Shown one piece after another: positions 6,540 through 29,362 of a stretch of DNA of 39,819 nucleotides. This DNA comes from Sulfurovum sp. GTDB lineage: Bacteria > Campylobacterota > Campylobacteria > Campylobacterales > Sulfurovaceae. A program made the translations under genes and the position numbers. Numbering within the stretch: position 1 is the stretch's first letter; each line of letters begins with the position of its first letter. The notes beneath the pieces are model-generated. The model saw only the letters and a list, made by a program, of their open reading frames with translations, was not told the DNA's origin and ran no database searches. The stretch lies in contig JALWTA010000040.1 of NCBI GenBank assembly GCA_027082955.1, positions 1-39,819 of the forward strand, read 5' to 3'.

Positions 6540-8093
6540 TTATACACCATCTTCTTTGTTTTTGATGTATTTGGAGACAATATAGTCAATTGCCTCTTCT
6601 TTTGTTTCGATTTTGCCATCAAGCTGCATAGCGTACAGATCATCAAGCATCGTTTTAAACTTTGGTGAGGGCTGCAAATCCAGTGCAATCAGGTCTCGTC
6701 CCTGTACCAGCGGCTTAAGCGGCTCTGTACGTACAGAGAGCTTCTGTGCTTTCTCAAGCAGCCACTCTCCGGCAGGGTACTCCCCCCTCTTTGCTTCAGG
6801 TGTCGTACGCCCCAAAAAGTCCGCCTTTGCCACTAGTACCAGCTCTTCGATGTTAACCTTGGTCGCCAGCCGCCTGATGGCTCCATCTTTTGCCCCCTGC
6901 GCATAAAACTGCGAGGGCTTTAGATGATGTTCTACCAATGGCAGAATGCTATCAATGAAATCATGTTCGTTGGTAAGGCGGTATAAAAAGTTTCGAGTAG
7001 GTTCAAGCCCAGCTGTTTCGTGGCGAAGTGCGCGAATGCGCGCATTCGAGTGAAGAGTGAAGAGTGCGCCCGAACGAAGTGACAAGTGCCCTTGGGGTAA
7101 AGAGTGAAGAGTTTTGGTATGTGTTTCTTGCAAAACACTTTTATTAAGTTCTTGCCACTTTTCAACTCTGCCATCTTCGTATTCAATAGTGGTAGTAAGG
7201 GGTTTGCCAAAGTCATGACATAGTGCCGCAAACAGCAGCTTCAATCTCTCCTTCTCCTCCCCTTTTCTCTTTTCCCTTTTCATTTTTAACTCTCTTGCCA
7301 TTTCATCAACGACCATCATCGTATGCACCCAAACATCACCTTCGGGGTGCCATTTCACATCCTGTGGTACACCAATGAGCGCATGCAACTCTGGGAAATA
7401 GCGCTCTGTAATCCCCCACTCACGCATCAGCTCCAGTCCTATCGAGGGTTTGTCTGCTTTGAGCAGAAGCTTCTTCCATTCCTCATAGACACGTTCTTTG
7501 GGAAGCTCGTCAAGCATCCCTTGGGCAACCATCTTTTTGCAAAGTACCGCTGTCTCTTCGGCTACAGCAAATTCAAAACGTGCGGCAAACTGTACGGCAC
7601 GGTAGACCCGCAACGGATCTTCCACAAAGGTACGGGCATCGATATGACGTAAAATACCCTGCTTAATGTCCTCTACACCGCCGTACGGGTCTAGCAGAGA
7701 ACACTTTTGCATCTCATAGCCTATGGCATTGATGGTAAAATCTCTGCGTCTTGCCGCTGTTTTAAAATCAAGTCCACCGTCAACTGAGACATCAAACCCC
7801 TGATGCCCTTTGCCTGTCTTACGTTCGGTTCTTGGAAACGAAAAGTCAAACTCCCATCTACCGCTTTTGAGCTTGACCACCCCAAAGCTCTTCCCTACAC
7901 TGTTGACACTGCCAAATGCACCAAGTATTACCTCAAGCTCCTCTACCTTGTGCAGTCCATACACTTCAATGTCATAGTCTTTGACCGGAAGTCCAAGCAG
8001 CATATCCCGCACCGCACCCCCAACAACTACGGCACTGGCACCTTTTACCTGCAAGGCATAGGAGATTTTCAGAAGGATTGAGGGTAGATACAT
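6540..8093 (-). CDS. CCA-adding tRNA nucleotidyltransferase/poly(A) polymerase with HD domain, carrying an in-frame repeat insertion
   Basis: A 517-residue class II nucleotidyltransferase that builds or repairs the tRNA 3' CCA end. Residues about 20-140 hold the catalytic head: VVGGAVRDMLLG, then KDYDIEVYG with the two catalytic Asp, and RRRDFTINAI. The PolyA_pol RNA-binding signature follows (DPYGGVEDIKQGILRHI, FVEDPLRVYRAVQFAARF). An HD domain begins near residue 255 (HPEGDVWVHTM, ALCHDFGKP). Between EDGRVEKW and HETAGLEPTRNF, residues about 315-357 are unlike the family and are encoded by a dispersed intergenic repeat (7033-7140). The frame is kept, so the protein may work, but the insert lies within the HD domain. 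It heads a three-gene operon. Confidence 0.9.
   Translation of the reverse strand: MYLPSILLKISYALQVKGASAVVVGGAVRDMLLGLPVKDYDIEVYGLHKVEELEVILGAFGSVNSVGKSFGVVKLKSGRWEFDFSFPRTERKTGKGHQGFDVSVDGGLDFKTAARRRDFTINAIGYEMQKCSLLDPYGGVEDIKQGILRHIDARTFVEDPLRVYRAVQFAARFEFAVAEETAVLCKKMVAQGMLDELPKERVYEEWKKLLLKADKPSIGLELMREWGITERYFPELHALIGVPQDVKWHPEGDVWVHTMMVVDEMARELKMKREKRKGEEKERLKLLFAALCHDFGKPLTTTIEYEDGRVEKWQELNKSVLQETHTKTLHSLPQGHLSLRSGALFTLHSNARIRALRHETAGLEPTRNFLYRLTNEHDFIDSILPLVEHHLKPSQFYAQGAKDGAIRRLATKVNIEELVLVAKADFLGRTTPEAKRGEYPAGEWLLEKAQKLSVRTEPLKPLVQGRDLIALDLQPSPKFKTMLDDLYAMQLDGKIETKEEAIDYIVSKYIKNKEDGV
7033..7140 (-). repeat. Copy R1 of a dispersed head-plus-palindrome repeat, inside the CCA-adding enzyme gene
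   Basis: Read on the minus strand, the head (7140-7100) contains CATACCAAAACTCTTCACTC, which is nearly the same as the heads of copies R2 and R3 near 12.3-12.5 kb. About 50 bp later it ends in a perfect 16-bp palindrome, CGAATGCGCGCATTCG (7033-7048). ACTCTTCACTC-type motifs occur twice between. The insert is open in the gene's frame and encodes about 40 residues foreign to the enzyme family. Confidence 0.75.
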
Positions 8094-11561: not shown

Positions 11562-12308
11562 TTATGCTTCCTCTTCTATGGTTTTAGTCTTTACAATGAT
11601 ACCCTCGATCAAATCGACCACATTTTTTTCTTTCGATACTATAACATAATCTTGCTGGGCGAGCACTTCAAGTCCTTCACAAAGTGCAAGACCGGCAGCA
11701 AAATCGTAAATGCGAAATACTCCTGTAAAAAGTACATATTTGACACTATGCGCATAGGCAAGCGAAAGGGCAACGGCACCGGGTGATCTAAATTTCAATC
11801 CGGCTTCATCAAGCAGAGAAACCACTTTCGGGTTGGCATAGGCTTTTTCAAAGAGACCTATTTCGGCATTGGGTACAGGAGAGACAGGTTTGAAGCTATC
11901 GGCAAAGAGTTTTCCATGAAGCAGCGTTTCAGAGGGAGTTTTCAGGAAAATGTCACCGTTGGCAAGGTTACACACCACTGCCGCATCGAGCACGCCGTCT
12001 GCATTGACCCGTGCAACAGAGGTTCCGTAGTAGGGAAAGGCAGAAAGCGCATTGGCAGAGCCGTCGATGGGATCGATGATAATATGGGCATCCCCCTCAC
12101 CGATGATCCCCGACTCTTCAGACTCGATGAAGCCAAAAGGGGAGAGGTGTTTGACAAAAACAGCTTCGGCAAAAAGATCGAGCCGTGAACTCACATCACC
12201 ACCCGCACCAATATCGGTCTTTTCATACCACGATACATCAAAACCTACCTCTATAGCTCTGGCGATCTCCTCATTGGCATCAATACAGGCTTCGATAAAC
12301 GGATCCAC
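11562..12308 (-). CDS. Inositol monophosphatase family protein
   Basis: A 248-residue protein of the lithium-sensitive phosphatase superfamily. Metal-binding motifs are present: ESEESG near residue 63, IIDPIDGSAN near 79, and YDFAAGLALCEG near 200, where WDxAAG is usual. It hydrolyses small phosphate esters such as myo-inositol phosphate or fructose 1,6-bisphosphate; the substrate cannot be told from sequence. The start is GTG at 12308, supported by AAAGGTGA just upstream. It is followed without a gap by accD. Confidence 0.88.
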   Translation of the reverse strand: MDPFIEACIDANEEIARAIEVGFDVSWYEKTDIGAGGDVSSRLDLFAEAVFVKHLSPFGFIESEESGIIGEGDAHIIIDPIDGSANALSAFPYYGTSVARVNADGVLDAAVVCNLANGDIFLKTPSETLLHGKLFADSFKPVSPVPNAEIGLFEKAYANPKVVSLLDEAGLKFRSPGAVALSLAYAHSVKYVLFTGVFRIYDFAAGLALCEGLEVLAQQDYVIVSKEKNVVDLIEGIIVKTKTIEEEA

Positions 12309-12324
12309 AACTCACCTTTCAACA

Positions 12325-12432
12325 AAAGCTTTTCAGTAGAAAAGCATACCCACACTCTTCACTAAACAAGAGCGCACTCAGAAACAAATCACGCTTTTTT
12401 GAAAACGGTCTAAAGGTGCGTGACTACGCACC
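12325..12432 (+). repeat. Copy R2 of the dispersed head-plus-palindrome repeat
   Basis: The head at 12325-12365 (GCTTTTCAGTAGAAAAGCAT, then ACCCACACTCTTCAC) resembles R3 and R1. About 50 bp further lies a perfect hairpin, GGTGCGT-GACT-ACGCACC (12415-12432). The tail sequence differs from the other copies, but its position relative to the head is the same as in R1. Confidence 0.6.
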
Positions 12433-12442
12433 CTACAAAAAT

Positions 12443-12536
12443 AGAAGCTTTTGGAAAGAAAAGCATACCAAAACTATTCACTCTTAACTATTCACTCTTA
12501 ACTATTCACTCTTATCTGTTATCGCAAAGCGATAAC
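12443..12536 (+). repeat. Copy R3 of the dispersed repeat, with internal 14-bp tandem units
   Basis: The head (GCTTTTGGAAAGAAAAGCAT, then ACCAAAAC) is followed by three copies of the 14-bp unit TATTCACTCTTAAC at 12475-12516, the last with one change. It ends in a perfect hairpin GTTATCGC-AAA-GCGATAAC at 12518-12536, two bases before the gltB stop codon. The hairpin lacks a T-tract on either strand, so it is not a classical terminator. Confidence 0.75.
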
Positions 12537-12538
12537 AA

Positions 12539-15500
12539 TCATTCCCCTTTTTTGTTCATCTCGAGGGTTGGTCTTGCACCGCGTGGTACGACCATCCAAA
12601 ACTTGCGTACTGCTGTTCTGGCATTGTCAAGGATCTCCTGTGCTTTTTTGCTACCGGTTTTGGCAACATAGTCTTTAAGCAGACGCTTGAGTTCGAACAT
12701 TTCAAAGTCCCACTCGTCTGTGTCAATGCGGATCGCTTCAACCAGCTCAGGGTTGAGTTTTTCGTAGAAGGTTCCCTCTTCATCATAAACAAATGCCTTA
12801 CCGCCGGTCATCCCTGCACCGAAGTTGATACCGGTGTTACCCAGAATGACAACAACACCGCCGGTCATATATTCACACGGATGGTCTCCCGTACCTTCGA
12901 CAACCGCTGTTGCACCGGAGTTACGTACTGCAAAACGTTCACCAACCTGTCCGCTGATGTAGAGTGTACCGCCTGTCGCTCCATACAGACAGGTGTTCCC
13001 ACCCAGTGCAAACTCAGGACCGCTCTTGCTTGAGGTGATGACGATGCGTCCGCCGTTCATCCCTTTACCGATATAGTCGTTCCCCGCACCGTAGAGGTTG
13101 ATACTGACACCTTCAGAAAGGAATGCACCCAGAGACTGTCCTGCCACCCCTGTAAGGTTGATAGTGATGGTATCTTCAGGCAGTCCTTTGTTACCATGAC
13201 GGGCTGCGATCTCTCCGGAAATGCGTGTACCGAAACTTCTGTTCAGGTTGCTGATCTCTTTTTCGATCACAACCGGTTTGCTTGGATCTTCGATGGTCGG
13301 CATCAGCTCCTCAACAATCGCTTTTTCATACTCATTTTTGTCATACGGCTCATTAAACGGTACCTGACAGGTGTCGATGCCATCCACTTTTTCCAGCAGC
13401 TGTTCAAAGTCGAACTTCTTGGCAAACTCATCATCGATCACTTTGAGAAGTTCTGTTTTTCCTACGATCTCCTCAAGGCTTCTGTATCCAAGCTGTGCGA
13501 GGATCTCACGTACCTCTTCGGCAAGCAGTGTGAAGTAGTTGATCACCTTCTGTACATTCCCTTTAAAGCGTGCACGCAGATGCGGATCTTGTGTTGCGAC
13601 ACCAACACCACAGGTATTCAGGTGACATACACGCAGCATCATACAGCCTACGATCACCAATGCACCGGTACCAAATGCGTACTGTTCCGCACCGAAGATC
13701 GCCGCTTTGACCACATCAAGTGCCGTTTTGAGACCACCGTCAGTCTCTACGGTAACAAGCTGGCGCAGGTTGTTGGCTTTGAGTGCGTTGTGTGCCTCTA
13801 CCAGTCCAAGCTCCCAAGGGTTCCCCGCAAAACGGATGGAGCCAATAGGTGCCGCACCCGTACCGCCGTCACCGCCGGAGATGATGATCTTGTCTGCATA
13901 GGCTTTGGCTACACCTGCCGCAATGGTACCGACACCTGCAGTGGAAACCAGCTTGACCGCTACTTTGGCATTGGGGTTGACCTGTTTCATATCAAAGATG
14001 AGCTGTGCAAGGTCTTCGATGGAGTAGATGTCATGGTGTGGCGGTGGTGAAATAAGTGTTACACCCGGCTTGGTATAACGCAACTTCGCAATAAGCGGAG
14101 ATACTTTACTTCCCGGAAGCTGTCCGCCCTCACCCGGTTTTGCACCCTGTGCTACTTTGATCTGGATCTCTTCAGCCGAACGCAGATACTCCGGAGTTAC
14201 CCCGAAACGTCCCGATGCGATCTGTTTGATCTTGGAGTTTTTGATAGTGCCGTAACGTGCAGGATCTTCCCCACCCTCACCGGAGTTGGATTTTCCGCCA
14301 AGGGTGTTGAGCGCTTCGGCAAGTACCTCATGTGCCTCCTGGGAGATAGACCCCATAGACATCGCCGCAGATGAGAAGCGTTTAAATATCTCCTCAATCG
14401 GCTCGACCTCATCGATGCTGATAGGCTCTCTTGGTGAGTTGAGCTCATAGAAGTCACGGATAAACTTCTTATCACGCTTGTCAATCATATCGGAGAGTAC
14501 TTTGTAGTCCTCTTTGCTGCCTGTCTGGGCTGCCTTTTGGATAGCAGAAATGACCGGTCTTGAGAAGTCGTGATACTCTTCACCTTTTTTGTACTTGTAG
14601 AAACCGCCTTTGTAGAGCGCGTTCTTCTTCCCTTCAAAGGCATCGGTGTAGGCACGGTCATGGTAGGTATTGAGGCGCTGGTCGATATCTTCATACCCAA
14701 GCCCTTTAAGCAGTCCTACAGAACCGTCGAAACATTCACTGACAATCTCATCATCCAATCCAATCACATCAAAGAGCTTGGAGTTACGGTAAGATGAGAT
14801 GGTAGAGATACCCATCTTGGACATGATCTTGAGCAGTCCCGCACCCATAGCACGTCTAAGGCGTCTGAGTGTACCCGGCATATCATCCGTTTCATCTTTC
14901 ATCAACTGCTCGACTGTGTAGTAGAGCAGATACGGATAGATAGCTGCCGCCCCGTAACCGATCATACATGCTGCCGAATGTGGGTCGAACACTTCACCGG
15001 TAACGGCAACCATGCTTACAAGATGTCTGAGTTTCTCTTCAAGCAGTACCTGGCTAAGGCGTCCAATGACCATCAGCATTGGTATCACTTTGGTCTCTAC
15101 AGAGAGGTTTCTGTCATCAAGAATAACGGTTCTAATGCCATTCTCACGTACATCGGCAACGATCTTCTCTACAAGTGCATCGAGGCTCTTTTTAAGATCA
15201 TGCGTGTAGGTGGTATCATACGAAGCCACTTTGTAGGCAGGGTCATACTTCTCATTCCCTTCCGTACCAAACTCCTGCAAGATGGCAAACTTCTCTGCAG
15301 ACATCACCGGCAGTACGGTTTTAAGACGCTTTGCGTGTTCTGCATCGTCAGAGAGGACATTACGCACTTCCCCAAACCCCGTATTGAGACTGGTAACAGT
15401 CTTTTCACGGATCGGGTCTATCGGCGGGTTCGTTACCTGTGCGAACTTCTGCTTGAAGAAGTCTGTAAAGTTACGCTGATGGGTAGAGAAGGCAGCGATC

Positions 15501-16957
15501 GGAGTATCATCACCCATCGCACCTGTGGTCTCTTTGCCCTCGAGTACCATCGGCTTGATCACTTCACGCATCACCTCAAGGGTAAAGTTGAAGTAGCGCT
15601 GTTTTGCTTCCATCTCTTTGTGATCAGTCGATGCAGTATCAACTTTGGTGTTAGGCACGAACTCCTGCAGGTAGCTCATGTTCTGGCTCAGCCACTTGTC
15701 ATACGGGTGCATCGACATGATATAGTCATCGATATCTTTGGATTTAAGCACTTTGCCAAACTTGAGATCAACCCCCATCATCTCTCCAGACTGCAGACGA
15801 CCGCGCTCTACGATCTTCTCTTCAGGCATTTGAAGTACACCATACTCCGAAGAGATCAGCAGACGATTGTCGGTTGTAATAACATATTTGGAAGGACGCA
15901 GACCGTTTCTGTCAAGGACACACCCAATGTAACGCCCATCTGTCATACTCACTGCAGCAGGACCGTCCCACGGCTCAAAACAGGTACTTGCATACTCATA
16001 GAAGGCTCTGAGTTCACTGTCCATCTGTGGCGCGTTGTGCCACGGTGCAGGGATAAGCGAACGTGCCGCTTTGAAGAAGTCCACACCGTTGACGCGCAGG
16101 AACTCCATGAAGTTGTCAAGGCTTGCAGAGTCACTCATGCCGTCTTGGATGACATCGGTCAGACGTGCCATCTCTTCGTCGGTAAAGACAGTTGATTTGA
16201 CCGCAGCCATTTTTGCTTTGACATTAAAGCGGTTGGCGGTAACAGAGTTGATCTCACCGTTATGGGCAATCATCCTAAACGGCTGTGCCAGTCGCCATTT
16301 TGGCAGCGTATTGGTAGAAAAGCGCTGGTGGAACAGACAGAAAGAGATCTCGAAATGTTCATCAGCAAGATCCGGATAGAACTCTTTGATGTGTGTCGGC
16401 ATGACCAGCCCTTTGTAGGAGACCACTTTGGAAGAGAAAGATGGAATGTAGAAGTCTTCATCATCTTTGAGTGCATGTTCTATCTCTTTGCGAGAGAGGT
16501 ACAGCAGCGCATCCAGGCGCTCGGAAGCAACCACACCCTTTGGTGCAACAAAGACCTGTTTGATGGTTGGAAGGGTTGACAGGGCCTGTTCACCAAGTGC
16601 ATTGGTATTTACTGGTACAGTACGGATATAAAGCACATCAAGATCATTGTTCGCACAGATTTTTTCTATGACATCAAAGTCAGCTTCATTGCGGGAGAAG
16701 ACCATTGCCACACCATACTGTTCCGGCAGTTCCACCCCTGCTTCAGCAGCTTTTTCTGCAAAGAATTTCTTTGGTATGGATAGCAACAACCCTGAACCGT
16801 CACCTGTCTTTCCGTCAGCGGCGATCGCCCCTCTGTGCATCATACGGGACAAAGATGTAACCGCATCTTCGAGATTCTGGTGTGTAGGTCTGTTGTCAAT
16901 AGAACATAACAATCCAAACCCACAGTTATCTTTAAATGAAGTAAAGAGATCTTGCAT
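12539..16957 (-). CDS. gltB: Glutamate synthase, large (alpha) subunit
   Basis: A 1472-residue protein from ATG 16957; the frame extends 11 codons further, but this ATG gives the expected short leader before the catalytic Cys (NCGFGLL). The N-terminal Ntn glutaminase domain is followed by the central and FMN-binding synthase domains (GGKSNSGEGGEDPARYG, PHHDIYSIEDLAQLI, SGGDGGTGAAP). The 3Fe-4S cysteines lie in CMMLRVCHLNTCGVG. The C-terminal GxGxG beta-helix contains GGVVVILGNTG. It makes two glutamates from glutamine and 2-oxoglutarate. No gltD is adjacent in the window, which is unusual since the pair is often linked. It is divergent from recO, with a long inverted repeat between. Confidence 0.97.
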   Translation of the reverse strand: MQDLFTSFKDNCGFGLLCSIDNRPTHQNLEDAVTSLSRMMHRGAIAADGKTGDGSGLLLSIPKKFFAEKAAEAGVELPEQYGVAMVFSRNEADFDVIEKICANNDLDVLYIRTVPVNTNALGEQALSTLPTIKQVFVAPKGVVASERLDALLYLSRKEIEHALKDDEDFYIPSFSSKVVSYKGLVMPTHIKEFYPDLADEHFEISFCLFHQRFSTNTLPKWRLAQPFRMIAHNGEINSVTANRFNVKAKMAAVKSTVFTDEEMARLTDVIQDGMSDSASLDNFMEFLRVNGVDFFKAARSLIPAPWHNAPQMDSELRAFYEYASTCFEPWDGPAAVSMTDGRYIGCVLDRNGLRPSKYVITTDNRLLISSEYGVLQMPEEKIVERGRLQSGEMMGVDLKFGKVLKSKDIDDYIMSMHPYDKWLSQNMSYLQEFVPNTKVDTASTDHKEMEAKQRYFNFTLEVMREVIKPMVLEGKETTGAMGDDTPIAAFSTHQRNFTDFFKQKFAQVTNPPIDPIREKTVTSLNTGFGEVRNVLSDDAEHAKRLKTVLPVMSAEKFAILQEFGTEGNEKYDPAYKVASYDTTYTHDLKKSLDALVEKIVADVRENGIRTVILDDRNLSVETKVIPMLMVIGRLSQVLLEEKLRHLVSMVAVTGEVFDPHSAACMIGYGAAAIYPYLLYYTVEQLMKDETDDMPGTLRRLRRAMGAGLLKIMSKMGISTISSYRNSKLFDVIGLDDEIVSECFDGSVGLLKGLGYEDIDQRLNTYHDRAYTDAFEGKKNALYKGGFYKYKKGEEYHDFSRPVISAIQKAAQTGSKEDYKVLSDMIDKRDKKFIRDFYELNSPREPISIDEVEPIEEIFKRFSSAAMSMGSISQEAHEVLAEALNTLGGKSNSGEGGEDPARYGTIKNSKIKQIASGRFGVTPEYLRSAEEIQIKVAQGAKPGEGGQLPGSKVSPLIAKLRYTKPGVTLISPPPHHDIYSIEDLAQLIFDMKQVNPNAKVAVKLVSTAGVGTIAAGVAKAYADKIIISGGDGGTGAAPIGSIRFAGNPWELGLVEAHNALKANNLRQLVTVETDGGLKTALDVVKAAIFGAEQYAFGTGALVIVGCMMLRVCHLNTCGVGVATQDPHLRARFKGNVQKVINYFTLLAEEVREILAQLGYRSLEEIVGKTELLKVIDDEFAKKFDFEQLLEKVDGIDTCQVPFNEPYDKNEYEKAIVEELMPTIEDPSKPVVIEKEISNLNRSFGTRISGEIAARHGNKGLPEDTITINLTGVAGQSLGAFLSEGVSINLYGAGNDYIGKGMNGGRIVITSSKSGPEFALGGNTCLYGATGGTLYISGQVGERFAVRNSGATAVVEGTGDHPCEYMTGGVVVILGNTGINFGAGMTGGKAFVYDEEGTFYEKLNPELVEAIRIDTDEWDFEMFELKRLLKDYVAKTGSKKAQEILDNARTAVRKFWMVVPRGARPTLEMNKKGE

Positions 16958-16987
16958 GTTTCCAACCTTAAAATAGTATATATGTCG

Positions 16988-17001
16988 CACGTACAGACGT
17001 G
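16988..17001. promoter_or_regulatory. Small palindrome upstream of gltB
   Basis: CACGT-ACAG-ACGTG lies just upstream of a TATACT-like box (16975-16980, minus strand), between it and a possible -35 TAGACA (17000-17005). It could be an operator for gltB; the spacing of the promoter boxes (19 bp) is not ideal, so this is tentative. Confidence 0.3.
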
Positions 17002-29067: not shown

Positions 29068-29350
29068 GGAATCAGAGACTTTAGTCCTGAACATAGCGAG
29101 GCTAAAGCCATCGTTTCCTCTCAAAACCCTATTCAAAAGTGTCTTGGAATCGGAAACTTTAGTCCCGAACATGGCGAGGCTAAAGCCATCGGTTCCTCTC
29201 AAAACCCTATTCAAAAGTGTCTTGGAATCGGAGACTTTAGTCCCGAACATGGCGAGGCTAAAGCCATCGGTTCCTCTCAAAACCCTATTCAAAAGTGTCT
29301 TGGAATCGGAAACTTTAGTCCCGAACATGGCGAGGCTAAAGCCATCATTT
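29068..29350. repeat. 78-bp tandem repeat array, 3.6 copies
   Basis: Units begin at 29068, 29146, 29224 and 29302, exactly 78 bp apart; the last stops after about 45 bp. Units two and three differ at one base, unit one at a few more. Each contains GGCTAAAGCC and an inverted pair CTTTAG/CTAAAG that could form a stem. Because 78 is a multiple of three, open frames run through on both strands, but no ribosome site or homologous protein is seen. It fills the 360-bp gap between the TRAP gene end and the antitoxin promoter; nothing else is visible there. Confidence 0.95.
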
Positions 29351-29362
29351 CAACGCTCAGCG

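Follow-up and report, generated by a model that had tools for sequence, protein, structure and literature searches.

Short dispersed palindromic elements with fixed architecture and changing hairpins and heptads in Sulfurovum

The adjacent repeats R2 and R3, which lie between gltB and an inositol-monophosphatase (IMPase) family gene of Sulfurovum sp. and are antisense to both, belong to a dispersed family of short elements that is apparently undescribed in the literature. We lean toward regarding its members as presumably once-mobile palindromic elements whose hairpins were made and repaired by replication template switching. The stretch of DNA analyzed (39,819 nucleotides; hereafter the window) corresponds to contig C40 of G000, a genome of 2.1 Mb; other G-numbers denote compared genomes. 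The original prediction, a repeat with a conserved head and palindromic tails of changing sequence, was largely right but too narrow.

The repeats in the window

The three copies in the window, including R1 in the CCA gene, and their neighbors are as follows (strand in parentheses where assigned).

6540 to 8093 (minus): CCA tRNA nucleotidyltransferase gene, with R1 inside it in frame
7033 to 7048: R1 tail palindrome, CGAATGCG/CGCATTCG; the arm on the gene side is native R-I-R codons, the element-side arm is new
7049 to 7115 (minus): R1 heptads, ACTCTTC, interrupted by a nested insert of ~33 nt (CCCCAAGGGCACTTGTCACTTCGTTCGGGCGC)
7116 to 7120: ATACC of R1
7121 to 7138 (minus): R1 head hairpin, GTGTTTT-gcaa-GAAACAC on the minus strand, within the CCA open reading frame
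11562 to 12308 (minus): IMPase family gene, downstream of R2 and R3 in the mRNA direction
12321 to 12363 (plus): R2, a shortened copy antisense to both neighboring genes: flank AACAAAA, head hairpin GCTTTTC-agta-GAAAAGC (12328 to 12345), ATACC (12346 to 12350), then a single heptad, ACTCTTC, and ACT
12364 to 12414: unrelated stretch separating R2 from the REP, also in G002
12415 to 12436 (minus): GTAG-type REP (GTAGGGTGCGTAGTCACGCACC on the minus strand), which belongs to a different repeat family
12440 to 12469 (plus): R3 flank AATAGAA, head hairpin GCTTTTG-gaaa-GAAAAGC (12447 to 12464, one mismatch) and ATACC
12470 to 12517 (plus): R3 heptad array, ACTATTC/ACTCTTA alternating, six heptads
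12518 to 12536: R3 tail hairpin, GTTATCGC-aaa-GCGATAAC, adjoining the gltB stop; species co-variants ATCATCGC, TCATCGC and TCATTGC
12539 to 16990 (minus): gltB, glutamate synthase large subunit, upstream of R3 in the mRNA direction

The head said to be shared by R2 and R3 is present (12328 to 12350 and 12447 to 12469), with GAAAAGCATACC matching exactly in both copies, and R1 indeed has a head on the minus strand of the CCA gene, albeit with one mismatch in its stem (GTGTTT/AAACAC). The three 14-bp tandem units described in R3 start at 12472, 12486, and 12500 and are really six heptads, making the array 48 nt long compared with the usual 34 nt. The perfect palindromes reported at the ends of R3 and R1 are both present. 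However, GGTGCGT/ACGCACC (12415 to 12432), which had been taken for the tail of R2, is instead part of the GTAG-type REP, close variants of which occur at orthologous sites without head or heptads (e.g. ispG-dnaB and gltB-IMPase in G079). Of the three copies, only R3 (48 nt) shows the proposed spacing of 35-50 bp between head and palindrome. R2 is truncated after one heptad, with the REP at a distance of 64 nt, and the spacer of R1 contains the nested insert.

The order R3, REP, ~50 nt, R2 is common to G000 and G002, and both this arrangement and the stretch from 12364 to 12414 are therefore ancestral. At the same site, G032 has one copy, with the same tail as in G000, G081 is empty, and G079 has a GTAG REP only. 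The insertion in the CCA gene is present in G000, G032, G079, G009, G036, and G025 and absent in ~20 other species; its nested insert is missing in G032. We note that the nested repeat CCCCAAGGGCACTTGTCACTTCGTTCGGGCGC (7066 to 7098 in R1) is also found within the heptad array of the G014 dnaB element (L159) and that protein-level matches to this stretch recur in a large number of the genus's genomes; the repeat may be a secondary insert restricted to heptad arrays.

Architecture, distribution and pairing of the head hairpin

A survey of the anatomy of the elements in 840 kb of G000 revealed a common unit plan, consisting of an A-rich flank (AATAAAA/AATAGAA), a 7-bp hairpin (H) with a loop of 3-5 nt, ATACC or AAACC, and an unstructured 34-nt spacer in which four heptads stand between 3 nt and a final ACT. 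As a rule, the heptads obey AYTMYTM (e.g. ACTCTTC, ATTCCTC, and ACTATTC), and a second hairpin (P) often follows the spacer. ATACC (GGTAT) is the tag in 157 and AAACC (GGTTT) in 49 of 210 copies. The genome-wide search proposed for the head bore out its dispersal: exact GAAAAGCATACC occurs 21 times in G000 compared with once for a reversed control pattern, far more than chance would give, and a covariance model detected at least 89 copies. The model matched 46 of 61 genomes of the genus, in very uneven numbers; at least 36 copies were found in G085, which belongs to a different genus of the family, and hardly any in the rest of the order. A lone good match with related heptads (L309:370-430), in a genome from another family of the order, is a possible transfer. 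Spread beyond the family was rejected on the exact GCATTGC pattern, which was found in Sulfurovum/Nitratifractor-type MAGs and in a single Sphaerochaeta match without heptads. A known RNA family was rejected as the identity of the elements because none of 4227 Rfam models matched them.

Eight head-to-head pairs, covering 15 of 44 copies, have their tags outside and their hairpins inside and can fold into one large hairpin, a plan resembling that of REPINs and MITEs; the other copies are single. In one such composite (fold z = -12.2), P1, the main hairpin, and P2 abut directly. The heptad motifs of the left and right halves differ in half of the 8 pairs, and pairing between the heptads of the two halves was rejected as a conserved feature on this ground. 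Inverted-repeat termini, as expected of a MITE, are confined to these composites.

To keep the pairing of H free of bias, copies were anchored on ATACC and heptads alone, and the stem was ignored. A perfect 7-bp stem was found in 34 of the 41 G000 copies so anchored, and perfect stems from G000 and its relatives pooled comprised 14 different sequences. When arms were paired across different copies as a mismatched-partner control, 0.6% of the stems were perfect. Twenty-two stem types occur among the 210 copies. Of the 791 pairs that make up 113 helices, 777 are Watson-Crick, 7 are G-T, and 3 are A-C, although the scarcity of the latter two is partly favored by scoring Watson-Crick pairs first. 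The unbiased-anchor set and this pair count are our evidence for covariation; a count on stems preselected as perfect is not relied on. Compensatory evolution of a hairpin, one of the two explanations originally offered, holds in part: for H, which is paired in nearly all copies with at least 14 sequences, and for the palindrome at the gltB end, which reads TTATCGC, TCATCGC, or TCATTGC.

H is inherited at orthologous sites, where the same stem is seen in 70% of pairs compared with 26% for different sites in different genomes. The heptads are alike within a copy and unlike between copies (mean distance of 1.16 within and 1.98 between arrays), and orthologous sites have the same heptad consensus in 20% of pairs compared with 19% for different sites in different genomes. 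Array length between species is normally constant at 34 nt; the heptad motif at orthologous sites is replaced wholesale at constant length. The array in the CCA gene reads ACTCTTC in G032, ATTCCTC in G079 and G009, ACTATTC in G036, and ACTCCTC in G025. Two further kinds of array were observed. Headless AATCCTC arrays of 6-13 copies follow TTGACAACAGTG..CACTGTGTCAA-like sequence at L134:14491-14620 and its orthologues L161 and L156, and their length varies freely, unlike that of the fixed four-heptad elements. At L006 (a tandem duplication), L022, and L031, the tail hairpin is followed by a second, headless unit of GCATACC and heptads; therefore, a host-derived hairpin can replace the head.

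Insertion sites and the tail hairpin

Copies either occupy the stop/start junction between two co-directional genes or lie within a gene in frame (CCA, MurD, Lnt, and AnmK). In-frame insertion is shared with the palindromic elements of Rickettsia, which are tolerated inside essential proteins; judged by description only, their structure is unrelated to the heptad array and varying stems seen here. The coding palindromes of Nematomorpha mitochondria are perfect inverted repeats inside coding genes whose protein is still functional but are not dispersed elements and have longer arms, up to 284 bp (PMC6649704). Leader ORFs run through the intergenic sense copies, and most of these leaders terminate at the following start codon or immediately beyond it (TGATG, ATGA, and TAATG). 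Because such stop/start overlap is already native in empty alleles, we conclude that elements persist at sites that preserve coupling. Heads of the GCTTTTC type are antisense in 12 of 15 automated calls, and inspection suggests the same orientation for two of the three exceptions. Further, several P2 hairpins carry a Shine-Dalgarno sequence in the loop or 3' arm, and selection for translational control may therefore have shaped them.

Alternatively, the repeats could be functional RNA of operons, the hairpins and leader ORFs serving as translational couplers, processing sites, or weak terminators between co-directional genes, with structure and spacing maintained by RNA-level selection. The ends of the leaders and the Shine-Dalgarno sequences of P2 are consistent with such a role, as are the retention of the dnaB leader in G000, G009, G036, and G014, the mainly antisense GCTTTTC-type heads (which would give an mRNA hairpin followed by UUUU), and the stable fold of the composite. 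However, the CCA, MurD, Lnt, and AnmK copies keep or covary H with no operon junction, G-U pairs are nearly absent, the empty sites of close relatives already have a native stop/start overlap, and the left and right heptads of composites are often mismatched. We therefore consider RNA function an unlikely explanation of the family, albeit the one that survives best among the alternatives.

P, scored as a palindrome directly 3' of the 34-nt spacer whose arms span at least 6 bp, follows 22 of 41 copies in G000 and 21 of 28 in its relatives but only 1.6-1.9% in shuffles; its offset from the spacer is 0 in 29 of 43 cases, and its loop is 3 nt in 28 of 43. The empty sites sought in relatives were found for the CCA, ispG-dnaB, and panB-ruvB (G024 and G079) insertions. 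In G024, where ispG-dnaB is empty, the ispG stop overlaps the dnaB start. In G009, this site carries the palindrome CTGAAGTCGAGAAG-atg-GCTTCTCGACTTCAG, the gene-side arm of which is native (GAAGTCGAGAAG, also present in the empty G024 allele), and the other arm is new; in G000 and G014, the palindrome is drawn from another segment of this gene end. The hemN site has three different palindromes at its upstream end, each derived from the codons of the species that carry it (one in G000, G009, G024, and G032, one in G036, and one in G002), and none is seen in G079, G014, and G025, which have neither heads nor heptads there. Given the empty alleles, the native gene-side arms, and the species-specific palindromes at one gene end, we conclude that P usually consists of host sequence next to the insertion, copied in inverted orientation, and is not part of the repeat. 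The tail palindromes had been read as part of a repeat of conserved structure, which is mostly wrong: one is the REP, and most of the others repeat the host flank in inverted orientation. No direct target-site duplication is evident by eye at ispG-dnaB, panB-ruvB, and CCA; inverted flank copies are seen instead.

There are exceptions. The palindrome at the gltB end co-varies between species, and at the 14491 site, similar palindromes exist in G079, G032, and G014 without heptads; P can therefore exist without the element. The latter would fit tail palindromes that are preexisting target sites at gene ends, as for group IIC introns beside terminators. We regard this as improbable because the palindrome is missing from the empty ispG and ruvB sites of G024, the ruvB site of G079, the gltB site of G081, and the element-free hemN alleles, because one gene end bears three different palindromes, and because P sits exactly at the end of the spacer. 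At hemN downstream site b (L165 and L167), the composite seen in G000 corresponds to REP pairs in G032 and G079, again together with an inverted copy of the gene end; inverted flank copies may accompany REPs as well.

Possible mechanism and relation to known repeats

The proposal that the repeat is a mobile element gains from the dispersed copies, the empty sites, and the in-frame CCA insertion; transposition itself was not observed, and neither excision nor recent insertion was seen in the compared genomes. We infer that the copies were formerly mobile, spreading by transposition of some kind and surviving only at sites that retained the reading frame or translational coupling. Hairpins are known to be both formed and mended by template switching (PMC8794818). 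In the present elements, replication would stall at the element's base, and a brief template switch by the nascent strand would copy the flank backwards, which would give a perfect P with a 3-nt loop exactly at the end of the heptads. The same process could mend both arms of H at once, leaving compensatory changes with almost no G-T intermediates, and slippage under a length constraint could homogenize the heptads. The retention of shape under changing sequence suggests that errors in DNA copying are able to form such structures and to mend them. Template switching alone does not account for the conserved 34-nt spacing, the conserved ATACC, or the conserved outer GC pair of letters in the stem. 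A bolder view, to which we give little credence, is that this is a class of element conserved by shape and spacing and not by sequence, with an inherited architecture in which hairpins are written and rewritten by template switching from adjacent DNA and the four-heptad array is replaced as a whole without change in length.

Among Y1_Tnp and RVT_1, the two enzyme families examined, no mobilizing enzyme was found, and copy number correlates with neither (rho of 0.05 and 0.01, respectively); several element-rich genomes are devoid of both. Spread by reverse transcriptase was rejected, as RVT_1 is absent in G000 and in 17 of 25 element-rich genomes. The elements resemble REP, REPIN, and BIME sequences in being short dispersed hairpins with a foot tag that occur as singles and head-to-head doublets (PMC3733652, PMC3116915), and REPs of the GTAG and CGTC types have been reported in Sulfurovum NBC37-1 (PMC3733652). 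REPINs moved by a REP-associated Y1 transposase, with GGTAT as a new foot tag, would account for the head-to-head doublets, which have tags outside and hairpins inside as REPINs do (PMC3116915). However, the foot tag here is GGTAT/GGTTT, not GTAG or CGTC, at least 14 stem sequences replace the family-constant hairpin of REPs, and the fixed 34-nt heptad spacer and host-derived second hairpin set the elements apart. There is also no link to Y1/RAYT: the Y1 genes of G000 are not flanked by heads or heptads, six genomes with 12-48 copies yielded no Y1_Tnp, and G063 has 31 Y1 hits and no copies. Of the explanations considered, we hold this one to be the least probable.

In the searched literature, which covers subscription papers in part, we found no described family that combines a spacer fixed at four heptads with a second hairpin derived from the host. 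The small dispersed repeats (SDR) of Nostoc, as Elhai reportedly described in 2008, are tiny hairpin elements with compensatory changes that often lie within tandem heptamers; by description, these are 21-27 nt inserted into heptamers, whereas here the heptads are within the unit. TAACTGA direct repeats of Beggiatoaceae, Cyanobacteria, and Bacteroidetes comprise 2-6 copies of a 7-mer and are mostly just upstream of starts and sometimes in ORFs, with related heptamers interspersed (MacGregor 2015, PMC4679880). They differ from the present arrays in having one fixed heptamer, instead of many (AYTMYTM) that are homogeneous within an array, and in that stops occur in their "forward" orientation (PMC4679880), whereas here pure heptads leave every sense frame open. 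A search of that paper for the terms hairpin and palindrome gave no sign of hairpins beside the arrays, of a fixed array length, or of inverted host copies.

The standard way to prove that an RNA stem is functional is to show compensatory base changes. In the present family, stems were created and co-varied in intergenic DNA, in leader peptides, and in the middle of enzymes, with almost no G-U intermediates, which warns that covariation alone is not enough to read RNA function. The same site in several species, together with its empty alleles, provides natural replicates, and a template-switch origin and upkeep of hairpins becomes directly testable in bacteria. The heptad array, with its fixed count, changing motif, and homogeneity within a copy, is a second puzzle and may link to the unexplained heptamer repeats of cyanobacteria and Beggiatoaceae.

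Two other repeats were observed. A Y1 transposase gene at L052:1400-2600 is bounded by GGGGTCAGGTGATAATGATAAC-type ends, partly duplicated beside an N run, and this element is distinct from the heads. In the window, positions 29068 to 29351 hold a repeat with a 78-nt period in three tandem copies (95% identity, 128-nt register).
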